Assembly: GCF_000744785.1 (NCBI RefSeq)
Contig: NZ_JQMO01000003.1
Span: forward strand, 4,588,001-4,652,000
Reading direction: 5' to 3'
DNA: 64,000 nt
Source of the DNA: Kitasatospora azatica KCTC 9699
GTDB taxonomy: Bacteria; Actinomycetota; Actinomycetes; Streptomycetales; Streptomycetaceae
Positions 7,521 to 15,063 of the stretch are shown here, piece by piece. Each line of letters begins with the position of its first letter. Position 1 is the stretch's first letter. Under the pieces are notes generated by a model, which was not told the origin of the DNA, did no database searches, and saw nothing but the letters and a program-made list of their open reading frames with translations. A program made the position numbers and the translations under genes.

Positions 7521-7604
7521 GCGGCGCGGGTGCCAGCGACAGAGCCGGAGCCCCTGTGGCACAGAGAGCAGGGACCATTCGGTTCCATTGAGGGCAGACC
7601 GGGA

Positions 7605-8189
7605 TCACGCCTTCCTCGCGTCGCGTATGAGGGTGACGAGCACCTTCTTGCCGGTGGGCGTCGTTTGGGCGCTGAGGCGCCCGTTGGAGAGATGGCTGAG
7701 CATGGCGAGTCCGCGGCCACGCTCTCCCATCTGCGTCAGTAGCGCGTCGGCGTCGGGTTCGCTGAGGGGCGAGTCGTGAGTCGGCGGTGCCGGACGGGGG
7801 TCGACGGGCGGGAGCGTGCTGCTGTGGTCGTGACACTCCAAGAGGTAGGTGGGCCCAGCGTTGTGGAGAAGGAGGCGGTAGGGGCCTTCGGCGTGTTCGG
7901 TGGCGTTGGCCGCGAGCTCGGAGGCGGCCAGGACGACGTCATCGATGCGGTCCTGCGCGAAGCCGAGCGCGTGCAGGGCTTCGGCGACATGGTGGCGGAT
8001 GTGGACGGTCGGGTGATCCGTCGCCGCCGTCCACTCGCAGGAGAGCACGGCGCCCGCAATCGGTTGGCATGCGGACCTCGTGCGGTCCTCCTGACGAGGG
8101 GGACGGCGGTCGACGGCGGAGGCGAGCGCCTCATGCTCAGGTGCCTGTGTGATCCGACCACCGCGATGGTGCGGGGTTGCGGTAAGCAT
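7605..8189 (-). CDS. RsbW/anti-sigma-type ATP-binding protein (HATPase_c)
   Basis: 194 residues. The GHKL ATPase core is visible as ASELAANATEHAEG (N box with the Mg-coordinating Asn) and ERGRGLAMLSHLS (G box), followed by the last strand TPTGKKVLVTL. The family comprises small serine kinases that bind sigma or anti-anti-sigma factors, usually opposed by SpoIIE-type phosphatases such as the broken one nearby. The first 45 residues are not conserved, and a later start around residue 49 (VLSCEW) is possible. ATG 8189 is used. No partner STAS protein is in the window. Confidence 0.75.
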   Translation of the reverse strand: MLTATPHHRGGRITQAPEHEALASAVDRRPPRQEDRTRSACQPIAGAVLSCEWTAATDHPTVHIRHHVAEALHALGFAQDRIDDVVLAASELAANATEHAEGPYRLLLHNAGPTYLLECHDHSSTLPPVDPRPAPPTHDSPLSEPDADALLTQMGERGRGLAMLSHLSNGRLSAQTTPTGKKVLVTLIRDARKA

Positions 8190-8209
8190 CTGAAGCTCGC
8201 GGTTCGGTA

Positions 8210-9021
8210 TCAGTAGGTGTGGGCGGGTCGTCGCACCTGCCGAGCCCAGTCGAGGACGTCGTCCGCGACGGTCTCCCAGCCCTCGTGCAGGGCCGTGCCG
8301 TGGTCCCGGCCGGCGTACTCCTTGTACTCAGTGAGCGCCTTGGCCCGTCGGTAGCGGCGATGGGTCTCGCGGACCACCGCGGCCGGCACGATGTGGTCGG
8401 CCGTGCCGCCCACGAGCAGCAGCGGTGCGCGGTCGGAGTTGTCGAACCGGATGGCGGTGGCGGCGCTGCGCGCGGGGGTGAAGTTGGCGAAGCCGGCCTG
8501 GAACAGGGGACGGCCCACGCCGGGCACGGACCAGCGGGCGCGCTCGGTGGCGGCCTGCTCCTTGGTGACCGTGTTGGCGAAGGCGTAGCGGAACTGGCGG
8601 TCGGTGAGCTTGACGGTACGGCGCAGGTTGGCGGGGTTGCCGAGAACGGGCCGGGTGGCGAGCAGCGTGGACAGCGGCAGGCGCAGGACGCCCTTGGCCT
8701 GCGCGGGGTGCAAGGCGACGCCGGCGGCGCCGAGACCGCGGTCCAGCAGGATCTGGGTGACCAGGCCGCGAAGGAGTGGCCGATGATGACGGGCTGCTCG
8801 TCCAGGGTGCGCAGGAAACGCTCGTAGTGGTCGGCGATCTCTCGCACACCCAGGCCAGCGGGCGCCCGGTCGTGGTCGAGCGGCTCGTGCAGCTCGGAGA
8901 CGCCGGGCCAGGCCGGGGCGTGGACGGTGTAGCCCTGGGCCTCGTACCGGTCGATCCAGGGCCGCCAGCTGTGCGGGCTCAGCCACAGACCGTGGATCAG
9001 GACGATGGACTTCGTGGACAT
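8210..9021 (-). pseudogene. alpha/beta hydrolase with single-base frameshift
   Basis: From ATG 9021 (preceded by GAAGGAG) the frame reads MSTKSIVLIHGLWLSPHSW and continues to VIIGHSF, the nucleophile elbow. Just there, near 8769-8771, one base appears to be missing: TTCGCGGCCTG stands where TTCGGCGGCCTG would give GHSFGGLVTQ. The rest (QILLDRGLGAAGVAL to the stop at 8210, with LLVGGTADHIVPA and GRDHGTALHEGW carrying Asp and His) is intact in the next frame. Restoring one base gives a normal ~270-residue hydrolase. It may be a recent mutation or a sequencing error. A TetR-type operator lies 19 bp upstream of the start. Confidence 0.8.
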
Positions 9022-9040
9022 GCTCACCACTCCTTCGATT

Positions 9041-9060
9041 GAGACAGACAGTTCTGTCTT
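9041..9060. promoter_or_regulatory. TetR-type operator 1 (hydrolase side)
   Basis: GAGACAGACAGTTCTGTCTT: inverted half-sites AGACAGA and TCTGTCT around CAGT. It lies directly before the ribosome site of the minus-strand hydrolase, in the region divergent with tetR. Nineteen bases are identical to the site at 12051-12070. On the minus strand a perfect TTGACA (9090-9095) is a likely -35 for the hydrolase, with only a weak -10, so a repressor bound here would cover the transcription start region. Confidence 0.7.
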
Positions 9061-9094
9061 GCCTCAAGCAGAGCATCCATGCAGGCCAGTGTCA

Positions 9095-9108
9095 AGACAG
9101 ACCTGTCT
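9095..9108. promoter_or_regulatory. TetR-type operator 2 (tetR side)
   Basis: AGACAGACCTGTCT, an inverted repeat of AGACAG around AC, 14 bases before the tetR ATG. It overlaps the TTGACA (9090-9095) on the minus strand by one base. It shares the AGACAGAC half-site with operator 1, so autoregulation of tetR and repression of the divergent hydrolase are inferred. Confidence 0.6.
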
Positions 9109-9122
9109 GTTACTCTGGGGGC

Positions 9123-9713
9123 ATGGATGCTGTGACCGACCGTGCCGCCCCGAAGTCGCAGCCGCGTGAGCGGCTGCTGGAGACCGCGTCCAAGCTCTTC
9201 TACGCCGAGGGGATCCAGGCCGTCGGGGTGGACCGGCTGATCGCCGAGGGCAGGGTCCCCAAGGCGACGTTCTACCGGCACTTCCGCAGCAAGGACGATC
9301 TGGTGCTGGCGTACCTGCGCGGTCGCGACGCCGCCATCCGGGCCCAGTTCACCGCCGGCGCCGCCGAGGTCGCCTCTCCCGAGCAGGTGCTCGACCTGCT
9401 CGTCGCCGGGATCGCTGAGGAGACCTGCGGCGCCGGCTTCCGGGGCTGCCCGTTCATCAACGCCGCCGCGGAATACCCCGACCCCGAGCACCCCGTCCGC
9501 CGGGCCATCGACGAGCACCGGGCTTGGTTCCGCGACGCCCTCACCTCCCTGGCGGCCGCCTGCGGACACCCCGATCCGTCCGCCGCCGCAGCCATGCTGG
9601 TCCTGCTGCGTGACGGCGCCATGGTCGGCGGCTACCTCGACGGTCCGGCCGTCTCCGGCGCGCTGGCACAGGGCGCACACGCCGTCCTGGGCCAGTCGTC
9701 GTCTGCTGCCTGA
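9123..9713 (+). CDS. TetR/AcrR family repressor
   Basis: 196 residues. The N-terminal DNA-binding domain contains RERLLETASKLFYAEGIQAV and the recognition helix region AEGRVPKATFYRHFRSKDDL. The C-terminal part (GCPFINAAAEYPDPEHPVR) is typical of one common actinobacterial TetR subgroup. ATG 9123 is chosen because it puts operator 2 upstream; an earlier in-frame ATG at 9039 would place both operators inside the gene. It is divergent from the frameshifted hydrolase. Inferred targets are itself, that hydrolase and the secreted hydrolase at 11029-11925. The inducing ligand is unknown. Confidence 0.88.
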   Translation: MDAVTDRAAPKSQPRERLLETASKLFYAEGIQAVGVDRLIAEGRVPKATFYRHFRSKDDLVLAYLRGRDAAIRAQFTAGAAEVASPEQVLDLLVAGIAEETCGAGFRGCPFINAAAEYPDPEHPVRRAIDEHRAWFRDALTSLAAACGHPDPSAAAAMLVLLRDGAMVGGYLDGPAVSGALAQGAHAVLGQSSSAA

Positions 9714-9845
9714 GTTCCCAGGTCGGCGGGCATCCAGGCGTGCCGGAAGGCTTGGGCCGCACCGATGGCCGCAGACGGGGTCCGCCGGACGCCCAGGATC
9801 GAATGGCCGGAACGGCGTGATCGCCTGGAGGCCACACCTTCATGG

Positions 9846-9895
9846 CAAGGCGCGAGGAGCCCCGGGCCGCAGCGCGGCTCGAGGCTCCTCGCCTT
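9846..9895. terminator. bidirectional hairpin terminator
   Basis: GCGAGGAGCC (9852-9861) pairs with GGCTCCTCGC (9883-9892), extended by CAAGG/CCTTG across one bulged base. It stands between the convergent tetR gene and the esterase ending at 9909, so it can serve both. Confidence 0.7.
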
Positions 9896-9908
9896 GTTCT
9901 ACTTCGTC

Positions 9909-10877
9909 TCAGTTGGCGTGCAGGGCCTTGCGCAGGACGTCGACGGCCTGGTTGATGGCTGCCTCGGCGGCGGAAGTTTCACGCAGGGCATTGAGCATCA
10001 CGAAGTCGTGGATGATCCCCTGGTAGCGGACCGCGGTGACGGACACGCCGGCTTCGCGGAGCTTGTTGGCATACGCCTCGCCCTCGTCGCGCAGGACGTC
10101 GGCCTCGGCGGTGATGACCAGCGCCGACGGCAGATCCCCGAGCTGCTCGGTCGTGGCCCGAAGGGGCGACGCGGTGATCTGGGCCCTCTCGGTCTCATCC
10201 GTCGTGTACTGGTCCCAGAACCACTGCATGCCGTCGCGGCGCAGGAAGTAGCCCTCGGCGAACTGGTGGTAGGAGGGCGTGTTGCAGCTCGCGTCGGTCA
10301 CCGGGTAGAACAGGACCTGCTGGACCAGCGGGACATCGCCGCGCTCCTTGGCCATCAAGGTGAGCGCGGCGGCCATGTTGCCGCCGACCGAGTCCCCGGC
10401 GACCGCGATTCGGGTGGCGTCCAGGCCCTTGGCCGCACCGACGCGGACCACCCACTGCGCGACCGCGTAGTTCTGCTCGATGGCGACCGGATAGCGGGCC
10501 TCGGGCGACAGGTCGTACTCGGGGAAGACCACGGCGGCGTTCGCGCCCACGGCCAGCTCACGGACCAGGCGGTCGTGGGTGTGGGCATTGCCGAACACCC
10601 AGCCCGCACCGTGAATGTAGATGATCACCGGGAGAGGGCTCTGGCTCCCGACCGGCTTGACGACGCGGGCCCGGACGGAGCCGGTGGGGCCGCCGTCGAC
10701 GGTGATCCATTCCTCGTCGACGGCGGGCTTGGCGATGTCGCCGGACTGCACCTCGTCGACGGCCTTGCGGCCCTCGGCCGTGGCGAGGTTGAACAGGTAC
10801 GGCGGGTTCGCGGTGGCCTCGGCGAAGGCCTGTGCGGCGGGTTCGAGGACAGGACGGGGCACGGTGTTCTCGGTCAT
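9909..10877 (-). CDS. HSL-type alpha/beta hydrolase (lipase/esterase)
   Basis: 322 residues. IYIHGAGW (residues ~87-93) is the oxyanion-hole motif of hormone-sensitive-lipase-type esterases, and VAGDSVGGNM carries the nucleophile Ser about residue 163. Asp in TAEADVLRDEG and His in GIIHDFVML complete the triad. It is cytosolic, with no signal peptide. The likely reaction is hydrolysis of short-chain carboxylic esters. It starts with ATG, but no TetR-type palindrome was found in front of it, unlike its neighbours. It shares a convergent terminator with tetR. Confidence 0.87.
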   Translation of the reverse strand: MTENTVPRPVLEPAAQAFAEATANPPYLFNLATAEGRKAVDEVQSGDIAKPAVDEEWITVDGGPTGSVRARVVKPVGSQSPLPVIIYIHGAGWVFGNAHTHDRLVRELAVGANAAVVFPEYDLSPEARYPVAIEQNYAVAQWVVRVGAAKGLDATRIAVAGDSVGGNMAAALTLMAKERGDVPLVQQVLFYPVTDASCNTPSYHQFAEGYFLRRDGMQWFWDQYTTDETERAQITASPLRATTEQLGDLPSALVITAEADVLRDEGEAYANKLREAGVSVTAVRYQGIIHDFVMLNALRETSAAEAAINQAVDVLRKALHAN

Positions 10878-10983
10878 GACGACCTTCCATGGATCTTGTG
10901 CAGCGGGGTGAGAGGTGCCGGCGGGCTCCGCAGGGCGCGGTCACAGGGATGCCCTCGGCGGGGATTTGGACCCGGGCGGGGTG

Positions 10984-11015
10984 GGCCTCCGCCGCCCGTG
11001 GAAGCGGCGGAGGCC
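10984..11015 (-). terminator. hairpin terminator after secreted hydrolase
   Basis: GGCCTCCGCCGC (10984-10995) and GCGGCGGAGGCC (11004-11015) form a perfect 12-bp stem with an 8-base loop, 14 bases past the stop of the minus-strand hydrolase gene. Confidence 0.7.
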
Positions 11016-11028
11016 GATGGTAGGCCGG

Positions 11029-11925
11029 TCAGCCCCGGGCGACGACGGCCTTTTCGATGAGGCTCGTCACGGCGCCCGGGTCGGTCAGCGCGACCGCGTG
11101 CGGCGCGTTGACCTCGACGGTGTGGGCGTGGGCGCGCGCGGCCATGAACTTCTCGGCGGCCGGCGGGATGGTGTGGTCGTCGCTCGCGACGAGGTACCAA
11201 GACGGGATCGTCTTCCAGGCCGGGGTGCCGGAGGGCTCGACCAGCCCCTGCGCGGTCAGGGGGCGCTGGGTGGCCGCGAGCTCGGCGGCGGTCGCGTTGT
11301 TGAATCGGCCGCTGAGGAACACGTCGCGGTACTTGTCCGCCTTGAGGTAGAGGTCGATACCGGTGCCGCCGACGCCCTGCGTGAACGGGACGGCGTTCAG
11401 CGCGGTGGGGACCGGCGCCTTCGGGTCGTCGCTGAGGTGGCTGCCGGGGAACTCCGCGCTGATGACCGCGGCGCTCTCGCCCTGGTCCGGGGCCAGGGCG
11501 GCGATGTAGACGAGCGCCTTGACGTTCGGGTTGCCCGTGGCGGCGTTGGTAATGACCTCGCCGCCGTAGGAGTGGCCGACCAGGACGATCGGGCCCTGGA
11601 TCGTCTTGAGGTAGTCGGCCAGGTAGGCGGAGTCGCTCTTCAGGCCGCGCAGCGGGTTGGCCGGGGCGTCGACCTGGTAGCCGGCCGCCTGGAGGCGCTT
11701 GACGACGCCGCTCCAGCTGGACGAGTCGGACCAGGCGCCGTGCACCAGCACGATCGTCGGCTTGACGGCGCGGAGCTGCTTCGCCTGAGCGACGGAGGCA
11801 CTGACGGTGGTGCCGCCCGTGGCGGCGGAGGCGCTCACGGCCACTCCGGCGGCGAGGGCGAAGCCCGCCACTCCGGCGACGGCAACGCTGACCCGGCGGC
11901 GCTTGGCGCTGCGGTTCTTGGACAT
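11029..11925 (-). CDS. secreted alpha/beta hydrolase
   Basis: 298 residues. The N-terminus has a basic stretch (KNRSAKRRRVS), a hydrophobic core and an Ala-rich cleavage region ending near residue 34, so export is expected. The hydrolase domain follows with TIVLVHGAWSDSSSW and nucleophile elbow LVGHSYGGE (Ser about 119), then a late HAVALTDP with the probable catalytic His. Its closest kin are the small RsbQ/EstC-like or haloalkane/methyl-esterase-like hydrolases; the substrate is unknown. ATG 11925 has GGGAGAAAGC just upstream. A promoter with a TetR-type operator lies about 125-175 bases upstream. Confidence 0.85.
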   Translation of the reverse strand: MSKNRSAKRRRVSVAVAGVAGFALAAGVAVSASAATGGTTVSASVAQAKQLRAVKPTIVLVHGAWSDSSSWSGVVKRLQAAGYQVDAPANPLRGLKSDSAYLADYLKTIQGPIVLVGHSYGGEVITNAATGNPNVKALVYIAALAPDQGESAAVISAEFPGSHLSDDPKAPVPTALNAVPFTQGVGGTGIDLYLKADKYRDVFLSGRFNNATAAELAATQRPLTAQGLVEPSGTPAWKTIPSWYLVASDDHTIPPAAEKFMAARAHAHTVEVNAPHAVALTDPGAVTSLIEKAVVARG

Positions 11926-12050
11926 CGGCTTTCTCCCTACAAGTTGGCGGACGGCAAGAGCTGCCCTCCGCAGGAAAGGGCGCAGGACGGCGCCGACAGG
12001 GTGGCGGCGGCACTTCGCAGAGCACGGCAACGGCCGACATGCGATCCTGA

Positions 12051-12070
12051 GAGACAGACAGTTCTGTCTC
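12051..12070. promoter_or_regulatory. TetR-type operator 3
   Basis: GAGACAGACAGTTCTGTCTC, with perfect 8-base arms GAGACAGA/TCTGTCTC around CAGT. Nineteen consecutive bases match operator 1 at 9041-9059. It sits immediately downstream of the predicted -10 of the promoter reading toward the secreted hydrolase, where a bound repressor would block initiation. Confidence 0.7.
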
Positions 12071-12072
12071 CT

Positions 12073-12100
12073 ATAATAGGCAGATCGGTGTCCTGGACAA
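12073..12100 (-). promoter_or_regulatory. predicted promoter for secreted hydrolase
   Basis: On the minus strand TTGTCC (12100-12095), a 16-base spacer, then TATTAT (12078-12073). This is AT-rich for the region. It is followed within two bases by operator 3, giving a leader of about 140 bases to the ATG at 11925. Inference from consensus only. Confidence 0.5.
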
Positions 12101-12161
12101 CCGAGAGCTCCGTGTCATGGCTCACAGGCGAGGGCAGTTCACGAGCCTCTTCCTTTTCCGG

Positions 12162-12640
12162 CTAATCGTCCGCGCCTTCGCCGGCGGTGTCCTTCTCCGC
12201 GTGCCGGTCGCGCAGCGGGCGTCGCCCCTGGGCCGGGCCAGTGGACGAGAAGGCGTAGCGGCCGTGGAAGTTGATGTGGCTGGTAAGCAGCGGCGACAGC
12301 CGCTTCACGTCCTCCTCCGCCACCGGCTCGCCCGTCGCGCGCGCAGGGCGGTGACCGCGGCGTCGAGGTTTCCACAGCACCGCGGCGTTCAGGACCAGCC
12401 CCAGCACCGCGAGCTGGCCTTCTCGGCCGTCTCGGTAGGCCTGCCGGATCTGCCCGTTGCCGCCGTGCGCGATGGCTCGGGCGAGACGGAGGCGAGACTC
12501 CTGCACGGTCAACTGCCGGTTCAGCGAATGCCGGTAGGTGTCGTCGACCGGGTTCGCCCACGCGAGCAGGTGCAGGGTCTTGTCGATGCGCCCGTACTCG
12601 GCGAACGCCGCCCCGACCAGGCTGGGATGGCATGGCCCTC
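12162..12640 (-). pseudogene. Tn3-family transposase, C-terminal remnant
   Basis: The minus strand encodes about 160 residues matching the end of a Tn3 transposase: EYGRIDKTLHLLAW, LNRQLTVQESRLRLARAI, HGGNGQIRQAYRDG, LGLVLNAAVLW, then after two compensating frame changes (NLDAAVTALRA is found in the next frame) ATGEPVAEEDVKRLSPL and HINFHGRYAFSS to the natural end. The first ~830 residues of the usual ~1000 are missing. The broken upstream edge near 12640 abuts the ltrA remnant. It is a fossil of a transposon that entered this stretch. Confidence 0.8.
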
Positions 12641-12739
12641 GCGGCCGAGCATCCGCGCCGAGTCCGACCACGATCGATCCTGGCGCCAAATGCCGCACCG
12701 GTCGACGCTCAAGACAGCCGCGGCCCGTGTTATGGGCCC

Positions 12740-13495
12740 CTGCTCACCCCGCCGCAGGTCGGCGGCGGAGAGAAGGACCAGCACGCGACCTGGACCGAGC
12801 TGTTCTTCGACCTGGTCGTCGTCGCCGGCGTCGGGCAGATCGCCCACGTACTGCACGGCGCCCCGTCACTGGCCGACCTGGCCCTCTACACCGTGCTGTA
12901 CTGCGCCTTCTGGATCGCCTGGACCGGCTTCACCGCCTACGGCAACATCCGGGCCGAGCAGGCCCGAACCTCCACCATCCTGCTCGGAATGCTCGGCATG
13001 GCCGTCCTCGCCGCATCGGTGCCCGGCATCCGCGGCACCCACGCCACGGCCTTCATCATCACCTACGTCCTGCTGCGCTGGCTCGCCGGCCGCATCTGGC
13101 AACGCGGCACCGTCGTTATGGACTGGCCCCTCGCCCAGCTCGGCGGCAGCACCGTGCTCTGGATCGCCTCCCTGTGGACCGACCCGCCCCTGCGGTACTG
13201 GCTCTGGGCCCTGAGCATCGTCCTCGACTTCACCGCCCTGTTCGCGGTCTCCGGCCAACGCCTCATCACTCGGACCCTGGAGCGCGTCGACAAGATCACG
13301 AAACACCGCGGCACACCTCCCGAGGCACCCGCGCGACCAGACCGCCTATGGCCAGGCTCGCACCTCACCGAACGCCTCGGCCTCTCCGCCATCATCGTGG
13401 TCGGCGAAGGCATCATCCAGGCCATCTCCGCCACCGCAGAAATGACCTGGAAACCCGCCGTGATCGCCACCGCGCTAGGCTCCCTCACCCGCCTC
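12740..13495 (+). pseudogene. ltrA (low temperature requirement A) truncated remnant
   Basis: About 245 residues resemble the multi-pass LtrA membrane family: HATWTELFFDLVVVAGVGQI at the start of the family domain, several hydrophobic helices, and RLGLSAIIVVGEGIIQAI. Conservation stops at VIATALGSLT; after it the frame goes on for about 55 unrelated residues to a stop at 13663. Family members are near 380-400 residues, so the C-terminal third is lost. No credible start lies close to the domain; upstream codons run into the Tn3 remnant. Both ends were probably lost in rearrangement. Confidence 0.72.
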
Positions 13496-13572
13496 ATGCC
13501 GAGATCGAACTCAGTGCACTCTCATTTCACATCGCGAGCCCCAGAGCAATCGACACGACTCGGCCAGCCGAT

Positions 13573-13644
13573 GTTTCCGCAGGTCAGAGACGTGCTGACC
13601 TGCGGAAACGATGAGAGATCAAACTGCGTTTCCGCAGGTCAGAG
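13573..13644. repeat. inverted/direct repeat cluster GTTTCCGCAGGTCAGAG
   Basis: GTTTCCGCAGGTCA (13573-13586) is followed by its exact reverse complement (13596-13609), making a 14-bp stem with a 9-base loop. A third copy, direct and 17 bases long with GAG, is at 13628-13644, 55 bases after the first. It lies between the ltrA remnant and the glnA stop, so it may act as terminator for glnA and also mark a recombination junction. Confidence 0.75.
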
Positions 13645-13650
13645 GCACCC

Positions 13651-15063
13651 CTACAGGTCGTAGTACAGCTCGAACTCGTGCGGGTGCGGCCGCAGGGCGA
13701 TCGGGGCGATCTCGTTGGTGCGCTTGAAGTCGATCCAGGTCTCGATCAGGTCGGGCGTGAAGACGCCACCGGCCAGGAGGTACTCGTGGTCCTGCTCCAG
13801 GGCCTCGAGGACGGCGGGGAGGGAGGCGGGGACCTGGGGGACGCTCGCGTGCTCGTCGGGGGCGAGCTCGTAGAGGTCCTTGTCGACCGGCTGGAGCGGC
13901 TCGATCTTGTTCTTGATCCCGTCCAGGCCGGCCATCAGCATCGCGGCGAAGGCGAGGTAGGGGTTGGAGGACGGGTCGGGGGCGCGGAACTCGATGCGCT
14001 TGGCCTTGGCGTTGGAGCCGGTGATCGGGATCCGGATCGCGGCCGAGCGGTTGCGCTGCGAGTAGACCAGGTTGACCGGGGCCTCGAAGCCGGGGACCAG
14101 GCGGTGGTAGGAGTTCACCGAGGGGTTGGTGAAGGCGAGCAGCGAGGGGGCGTGCTTGAGCAGGCCGCCGATGTAGTAGCGGGCGGTGTCGGACAGGCCC
14201 GCGTAGCCCTGCTCGTCGTAGAAGAGCGGTGCGCCCTCGGCCCAGAGCGACTGGTGCACGTGCATGCCGGAGCCGTTGTCGCCGAAGATCGGCTTGGGCA
14301 TGAAGGTGGCGGTCTTGCCGTTGCGCCAGGCCACGTTCTTGATGATGTACTTGAACAGCATCAGGTCGTCGGCGGCGTGCAGCAGGGTGTTGAACTTGTA
14401 GTTGATCTCGGCCTGGCCGGCGGTGCCGACCTCGTGGTGCTGACGCTCCACCTGCAGGCCGGCGGCGGCCAGTTCCAGCGACATCTCGGCGCGCAGGTCG
14501 GCGAAGTGGTCGACCGGCGGGATCGGGAAGTAGCCGCCCTTGTACTTGACCTTGTAGCCGCGCGCGTCGCCCTCGGCGGAGCCGGTGTTCCAGGCGCCGG
14601 CCTCGGAGTCGATGTGGTAGTACGAGGCGTTGGCGCTGGTCTCGAAGCGGACCGAGTCGAAGACGTAGAACTCGGCCTCGGGACCGAAGAAGGCGGTGTC
14701 GGCGATGCCGGAGGAGGCGAGGTAGGCCTCGGCCTTCTTGGCCACGTTGCGCGGGTCGCGGCTGTAGGCCTCGCCGGTGATCGGGTCCTGGATGAAGAAG
14801 TTGATGTTGAGGTGCTTGTCCTTGCGGAACGGGTCGAGCCGGGCCGTGGCCAGGTCCGGCACCAGGGCCATGTCCGACTCGTGGATGGCCTGGAACCCGC
14901 GGATCGACGAGCCGTCGAACATCAGCGTCTCGGCGGGGTCGAAGGTGGCCGCCGGGACCGCGAAGTGCTGCATGACGCCTGGCAGGTCGCAGAACCGGAC
15001 ATCCACGAACTTGATGTCGTTCTCCGCGATGTAAGCCTTGACCTCGTCGGCGTTCTTGAACAT
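13651..15063 (-). CDS. glnA: type I glutamine synthetase
   Basis: 470 residues. It makes glutamine from glutamate, ammonia and ATP as a cytosolic dodecamer. [41 protein letters not shown] and ADP-ribosyl/substrate-site [17 protein letters not shown] are in the expected order. The adenylylation tyrosine is in DKDLYELAP (about Y398), so control by GlnE is expected. ATG 15063 is chosen, since GAGGAGG stands five bases upstream; the codon before it is TTG. A GlnR box lies 76 bases further upstream, as expected for the main nitrogen-controlled GS. It forms the right border of the rearranged accessory stretch. Confidence 0.98.

Follow-up and report, generated by a model that had tools for sequence, protein, structure and literature searches.

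Three near-identical palindromes suggest an autoregulated TetR regulon with two hydrolase targets in Kitasatospora azatica

In the genome of Kitasatospora azatica KCTC 9699 (8,272,299 bases, 3 contigs), a gene for a TetR-family regulator (tetR) faces a gene for an alpha/beta hydrolase, and one 19-base sequence stands both in the gap between them and, 3 kb away, in front of a further hydrolase gene. Are these sequences the operators of a single regulon, and to what signal would its repressor respond? The locus lies in a window of 64,000 nucleotides (C3:4588001-4652000), whose own numbering is used below. The gene order is hydrolase 1 (H1, - strand), site A, site B, tetR (+), hydrolase 2 (H2, -), hydrolase 3 (H3, -), site C, a Tn3 transposase fragment (-) and an LtrA-like gene (+) (Table 1). 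We consider it very probable that TetR is an autoregulated repressor with twin operators between tetR and H1 and one operator at the exported H3 3 kb away. An earlier reading of this DNA from its letters alone (the sequence-only reading) had proposed such a regulon, with near-identical operators at tetR, H1 and the exported hydrolase, and genome comparison now supports it.

Direct matching confirms the exact 19-base repeat that this reading had reported at sites A and C, with a spacing of 3010, and the related site that it had placed 14 bases before tetR. The latter, site B, matches the 19-mer GAGACAGACAGTTCTGTCT on the opposite strand with three mismatches, and 14 bases separate its core AGACAGACCTGTCT from the tetR ATG at 9123. 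Site A is separated from the H1 ATG by 19 bp, and sites A and B lie 53 bp apart, start to start. The interval drawn around the system ended at 12070, one base beyond site C (12069). At up to three mismatches the 19-mer has three matches in the window, as compared to a mean of 0.01 in 100 shuffles, and the whole genome yields the same three sites and no further one (reversed-pattern control, 0). The core ACAGACAGNNCTGTCT occurs exactly in the genome solely at sites A, B and C; at two mismatches it is found at four other places, and the reversed control at five. We read the operator preferably as an 18-bp unit, AGACAGACAGTTCTGTCT. Among the matches listed, neither the operator 18-mers nor the 14-mer occurred in the full-text literature, and 12-mer operator strings matched only papers from mouse and cell biology, which were taken as noise.

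A near relative of the same genus (G002), 99.4% identical over 7601-13700, has all three sites. In a genome of another genus (G277), TetR is 80% and H1 86% identical to the proteins of the window, and the same two sites stand 53 bp apart. Each of sites A and B is kept there at 18/18 bases (36/36 in total); in the rest of 9025-9122, 27/65 columns are identical, gaps being counted as differences. The tree places the window TetR and its G277 counterpart side by side (support 0.993); a node of six members, which adds to them four further TetRs facing H1 genes, has a support of only 0.099. Palindromic sites that are conserved and specific stand at both the putative tetR and the putative H1 promoter, with exceptions among the relatives.

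With the pattern AGACAGAMMGTTCTGTCT at no more than one mismatch, 18 of 394 genomes of the family were matched, the source genome and G002 included, and none with the reversed control. Leaving these two aside, there are 17 sites in 16 genomes, and a TetR relative lies within 1.5 kb of 14 of them. Of these TetR-linked sites, eleven are upstream of the TetR gene itself, two precede a neighbour running towards TetR (L124, L133) and one is placed more loosely (L144). The gene beside the site encodes an alpha/beta hydrolase in eight of the 17 cases (L125, L126, L133, L135-L139), an AhpC/TSA peroxiredoxin in three (L131, L132, L140), Ohr in two (L127, L141), a quinone-oxidoreductase-like protein in one (L130), a membrane protein in one (L124) and other products in two (L134; L144, SsgA-like). 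The motif, a 20-mer in the sequence-only reading, is hence not scattered without link to tetR or hydrolase genes: it has three sites in the genome, and the link recurs elsewhere. Judging from this distribution, the 18-bp operator is older than the source genome. In two genomes of the window's genus (G038, L131/L152; G049, L132/L153), an AhpC/TSA peroxiredoxin gene has the operator 23 bp in front of it, and the 15 kb examined gave no TetR relative; in G028 the operator stands 45 bp before the quinone-oxidoreductase-like gene, likewise without a TetR nearby.

Starting from the regulator instead of the operator, we compared 104 non-redundant TetR loci, namely the best 80 of 426 stretches plus 30 loci (L004-L033), minus the two of the source genome and G002 and minus four duplicates; for same-genus loci the flanks comprised 1.5 kb only. 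The strict motif occurs within 260 bp upstream at 30/104 loci (100 shuffles: mean 0.08, maximum 2), and relatives carry AGACAGACCGTTCTGTCT, AGACAGAACGTTCTGTCT and AGACAGACCTGTCTGTCT directly upstream. Four operator types together cover 69 of the 104 upstream regions; of the 35 uncovered, 21 belong to a clade beside SDR genes, a class that includes L071 and L082, assigned without an SDR match. Across the 104 loci, the DNA-reading helix appears to track the operator type, imperfectly. All eleven TetRs with the helix GRASFYRHF have a CGGTACCGATCGGTACCG-type operator and all six with KVTFYRHF an ACTAGT-type one; an AGAMCGA-type operator accompanies 34/47 RATxYRHx helices, and an AGACAG-type operator 12/19 KATFYxHF helices outside the SDR clade (shuffles 0.0 for each of the four). 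The window TetR has the helix VPKATFYRHF and an operator of the AGACAG type. This covariation is the best sign that the window TetR itself would read these sites.

Several individual loci of this set may be described here. The eleven GRASFYRHF proteins (L023-L033) are same-genus TetRs with palindromes of their type upstream, and none of the partner genes sought was found beside them. SDR-linked TetRs such as L057, L063, L065 and L069 have Ser in place of Cys109, have none of the four operator types and face SDR genes; L116 (G002) and L117 (source genome) have nearly the reading helix of this clade. A further paralogue of the source genome (L115, C3 near 4,909,879) is about 55% identical and has a different operator-like sequence, AGAACGTTCGTTCT, upstream (by eye).

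How would such a repressor act? In the TetR/TetA system, two palindromic operators in the gap of a divergent pair serve both promoters, and five of five TetR-family regulators tested with a gap below 200 bp repressed their divergent neighbour (PMC3511530, excerpt). The start codons of tetR and H1 are 101 bp apart, and the window shares with TetR/TetA the divergent pair and the two palindromic operators in the gap; it differs in having hydrolases as targets instead of an efflux pump and a third operator 3 kb off. By analogy, the arrangement is of the tetR/tetA type with a distant third operator and would represent an autoregulatory TetR regulon of a known sort. We infer that the tetR product is a homodimeric repressor binding the 18-bp inverted repeat and that sites A and B silence both divergent promoters. 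In an alignment of six genomes inspected by eye, TTGACA on the H1 strand (9095-9090) and TAnnnT (9111-9116), which precedes the tetR ATG by 6 or 7 bases, are present in all six; no good -10 hexamer for H1 was seen there. These positions agree with tetR being transcribed without a leader and with H1 transcription beginning beneath site A. Site B would then overlap the likely -10 of tetR at its edge and touch the likely -35 of H1, and site A would cover the expected H1 start. For H3, a start is expected about 7 bases past the promoter-like match TTGTCC-16-TATTAT and is therefore predicted inside site C. Since this third copy lies at the predicted H3 start, one repressor may control H1, H3 and itself until an oxidant or some small molecule frees it from the DNA. 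The suggestion that both hydrolase sites cover a transcription start is supported for H3 by the one promoter-like match, which places it inside site C; for H1 the tool returned no promoter, and the conserved TTGACA was seen by eye.

A number of observations weigh against this regulon or blur its outline. The palindrome can be set in two overlapping registers, one following from the 18-mer and one from the 14-bp core; the rule-based scan gave no promoter in the tetR/H1 gap; and the reading frame of H1 is broken in the source genome. Three of the 17 sites found by pattern have no TetR relative nearby, and that of L144 lies 0.6 kb past the TetR gene, beside the SsgA-like gene. From the side of the regulator, the strict motif is missing at 74/104 loci, and in the SDR-linked KATFYxHF clade no member has an operator of any of the four types (0/21). 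The types with K and R in the helix overlap: AGACAG-type operators also occur with 18/47 RATxYRHx helices, and among the 19 KATFYxHF proteins four have an AGAMCGA-type and two an ACTAGT-type operator. These counts come from related sequences and from operator types defined after the data had been seen, so that the comparison of helices and operators is a description and no blind test. Regarding H3, a related site is present at only 7 of the 28 non-self loci examined, and in G277, whose TetR is the closest after that of G002, the 16 kb examined contain neither H3 nor H2 nor site C.

The last point bears on the history of H3. Since H3, H2 and site C are missing from these 16 kb of G277, the combination of tetR-H1 with an H3 that has its own site was seen only in the source genome and G002. 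H3 was followed in 30 loci (124 of 297 genomes matched), the source genome and G002 among them. Four of the five closest non-self relatives (L163-L167) are preceded by a related palindrome and followed by a TetR relative, the palindrome being imperfect in L163 and the TetR match partial in L164. In L050 and L068, relatives of H1 and H3 follow each other within 1.5 kb of TetR; in L168-L170 they also occur together (H1 partial in L170). As operator-bearing H3 genes are found elsewhere but none lies in the 16 kb of G277, H3 looks like a later addition in the source lineage, with a Tn3 fragment beside it.

This neighbourhood raises two other explanations of site C. Sites A and C might be direct repeats left by a mobile element, without regulatory role, given that the Tn3 transposase fragment lies beside site C and that the repeat is exact over 19 bp at a distance of 3 kb. 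The sites are, however, palindromic; 16 other genomes have them too, for the most part close to relatives of TetR; and G277 retains A and B. We hence hold such an origin to be extremely unlikely. Terminal repeats of Tn3 or target duplications were rejected as identities for A and C, since other genomes have the same sites next to TetR genes; none of the six listed inverted pairs coincides with a site. Alternatively, H3 might have brought its own operator along, and site C would then be the target of another TetR, a paralogue. The nearest relatives of H3 are accompanied by TetRs that share about 54% identity with that of the window, of which the three placed in the tree fall in a different clade; the sites at these relatives are AGATAGAACGTTCTATCT or AGACAGAACGTTCTGTCT. 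We regard this as very unlikely, because site C equals site A over 19 bases, unlike the sites of the H3 relatives, and because, of the two paralogues inspected in the source genome, L115 has a different operator-like sequence and L117 none. Control of H3 by the TetR of this locus remains our preferred reading.

Table 1. Predicted operators, genes and further features of the tetR locus (window coordinates)
Feature	Position	Strand	Description
Site A	9041-9059	+	Exact 19-mer GAGACAGACAGTTCTGTCT; 18-mer at 9042-9059; predicted operator between H1 and tetR
Site B	9095-9112	-	Predicted operator; core AGACAGACCTGTCT at 9095-9108 on +
Site C	12051-12069	+	Exact 19-mer GAGACAGACAGTTCTGTCT; 18-mer at 12052-12069; at predicted H3 transcription start
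Promoter-like match TTGTCC-16-TATTAT	12073-12100	-	Candidate for H3; 1 found, mean 0.0 in 50 shuffles
tetR	9123-9713	+	TetR-family regulator, 196 amino acids; TetR_N PF00440, E 1.2e-12
H1	8210-9021	-	Alpha/beta hydrolase, divergent from tetR; frame broken in source genome
H2	9909-10877	-	Hormone-sensitive-lipase-type esterase downstream of H3
H3	11029-11925	-	Alpha/beta hydrolase behind site C; N-terminus resembles a signal peptide (read by eye)
GC hairpin, 14 bp	10984-11015	-	H3-H2 gap, found by folding; possible terminator without T run
Tn3-family transposase, C-terminal fragment	12162-12698	-	Adjoins site C
LtrA-like gene	12632-13663	+	Beyond the Tn3 fragment

Concerning the genes themselves, the frameshift that had been noted in H1 is confirmed: the gene is out of frame in the source assembly, from which full-length H1 protein cannot come, and intact copies are present in G002 and G277. 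H3 and H2 are 151 bp apart. No terminator was found between them by the T-run rule, and the 157-nt stretch has a folding z-score of only -1.24, with 19/200 shuffles folding as well; membership of H2 in the regulon is doubtful. G002 has a frame of equal length (178 amino acids) to the Tn3 transposase fragment. The 3' end of the LtrA-like gene contains two repeats, one direct and 17 bp long (13573-13589, 13628-13644), the other inverted and 16 bp long (13595-13610, 13627-13642); the frame that follows these repeats (13573-13644) is presumably glutamine-synthetase-like.

What kind of protein is the regulator? Its predicted fold comprises nine helices (mean predicted local distance difference test score, pLDDT, 90.6) with a PF00440 helix-turn-helix and an all-helical ligand domain, and the best Foldseek matches are TetR-family structures. 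The nearest is SCO4454 of Streptomyces coelicolor (PDB 3g7r), 50% identical over 177 columns, with a template modelling (TM) score of 0.87 on the query and a shared FRGC motif; its reading helix is RATLYRHF, as compared to KATFYRHF in the window TetR. Similarity over the full length and the motif FRGCxFxNAxAEYPDP, present in most members, place the window TetR in the SCO4454 subfamily. A full-text search of the openly licensed literature, without most subscription journals, returned no paper on SCO4454 or 3G7R, and among the matches listed for TetR proteins with Ohr, peroxiredoxin or chloroperoxidase none was recognised by its title or the start of its abstract as dealing with this subfamily.

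The genes beside these regulators were counted by tblastn with chosen queries within 1.5 kb of TetR, since a simple gene finder missed TetR in 13/90 loci; the counts cover the queried partners only, and some loci count twice. Among the 104 loci, the partners are a membrane protein (23), SDR (19), peroxiredoxin (12), H3-type (10), H1-type (8) and Ohr (8), followed by aldehyde-dehydrogenase-like (4), ketopantoate-reductase-like (4) and chloroperoxidase-like hydrolase (2) genes; 22 loci have none of those sought. Ohr, AhpC/TSA, SDR, zinc-type dehydrogenase and alpha/beta hydrolase partners were assigned by family match, and the membrane protein gave no family match. The names aldehyde dehydrogenase, ketopantoate reductase and chloroperoxidase are what we take these partners to be from the look of their sequences.

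The sequence-only reading had made the ligand of TetR a substrate or product of the hydrolases. Nothing specific was found in support of this, and the subfamily also stands beside Ohr, peroxiredoxin, SDR and membrane-protein genes. An esterase regulon induced by substrate or product would suit the two or three alpha/beta hydrolases around one TetR, the recurrence of three hydrolase sequence types (H1, H3 and that of L135/L139) beside subfamily TetRs, and the weak matches of H3 to pyrethroid hydrolases (best E 2.8e-9). The partners in sister clades, however, are not hydrolases, and we put this possibility tentatively at somewhat below an even chance.

Because relatives adjoin Ohr, peroxiredoxin, SDR and membrane-protein genes besides hydrolases, the signal may instead be an oxidant or electrophile. 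The same repressor would then act at the same sites, perhaps sensing through Cys109 (and Cys102), and the hydrolases would serve detoxification and not substrate use. This idea draws on the Ohr and AhpC/TSA peroxiredoxin partners (8/104 and 12/104) and on the operators without TetR, which front the peroxiredoxin genes of G038 and G049 and the quinone-oxidoreductase-like gene of G028. It also draws on position 109, which is Cys in 84/105 and Ser in 21/105 proteins: Ser is found in 19/19 SDR-partnered members, Cys in all with an Ohr, peroxiredoxin or hydrolase partner. The change to Ser is, however, confined to one clade and was therefore probably a single event; the Gly-Cys pair may be structural, as it is also present in distant TetRs (3jsj, 3qbm, 8z6d) and so extends beyond redox sensors; and SDR (19) and membrane-protein (23) partners, along with 22 of 104 loci with none of those sought, likewise weigh against the idea.

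Known sensors of the family have been drawn on for both sides. NemR of E. coli, which controls nemA and gloA, senses electrophiles and hypochlorite, with Cys106 tied to the hypochlorite response (PMC7464077, excerpt). This thiol sensor is a distant sequence and fold match of the window TetR (4yze, rank 9, 22% identity). In Corynebacterium glutamicum, AtsR is released by hydrogen peroxide and represses a drug-exporter operon through the operator TGCAA-N2-TTGCA (PMC9210681, excerpt); it resembles the window TetR as an actinobacterial TetR with a palindromic operator and is set apart by an operator unlike that of the window. CssR, a stress-responsive TetR of Corynebacterium, was rejected as a match on the same ground of a different operator, and its cysteines are described as without redox activity (PMC8176726, excerpt), a point against thiol sensing here. 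An oxidant or electrophile as signal is an alternative to be taken seriously, though it appears rather unlikely.

A wider account may be given, which we hold to be less probable still. The window TetR would belong to a large actinobacterial subfamily of thiol-type oxidant or electrophile sensors, in which reading helix and 18-bp operator changed together while the targets were swapped (Ohr, peroxiredoxin, quinone reductase, several alpha/beta hydrolases, SDR). The exported hydrolase, acquired beside a Tn3 remnant, would have been drawn into the regulon by an operator that is now identical to the resident one.

The local switch predicted here is in itself ordinary, and its value lies in the little-known TetR subfamily to which it leads. 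Four helix types set against four operator types, with exceptions, over 104 loci offer a ready test of a recognition rule for TetR proteins. Since peroxidases and hydrolases are both among the partners, what these TetRs sense can be tested directly with one protein and three short DNAs.

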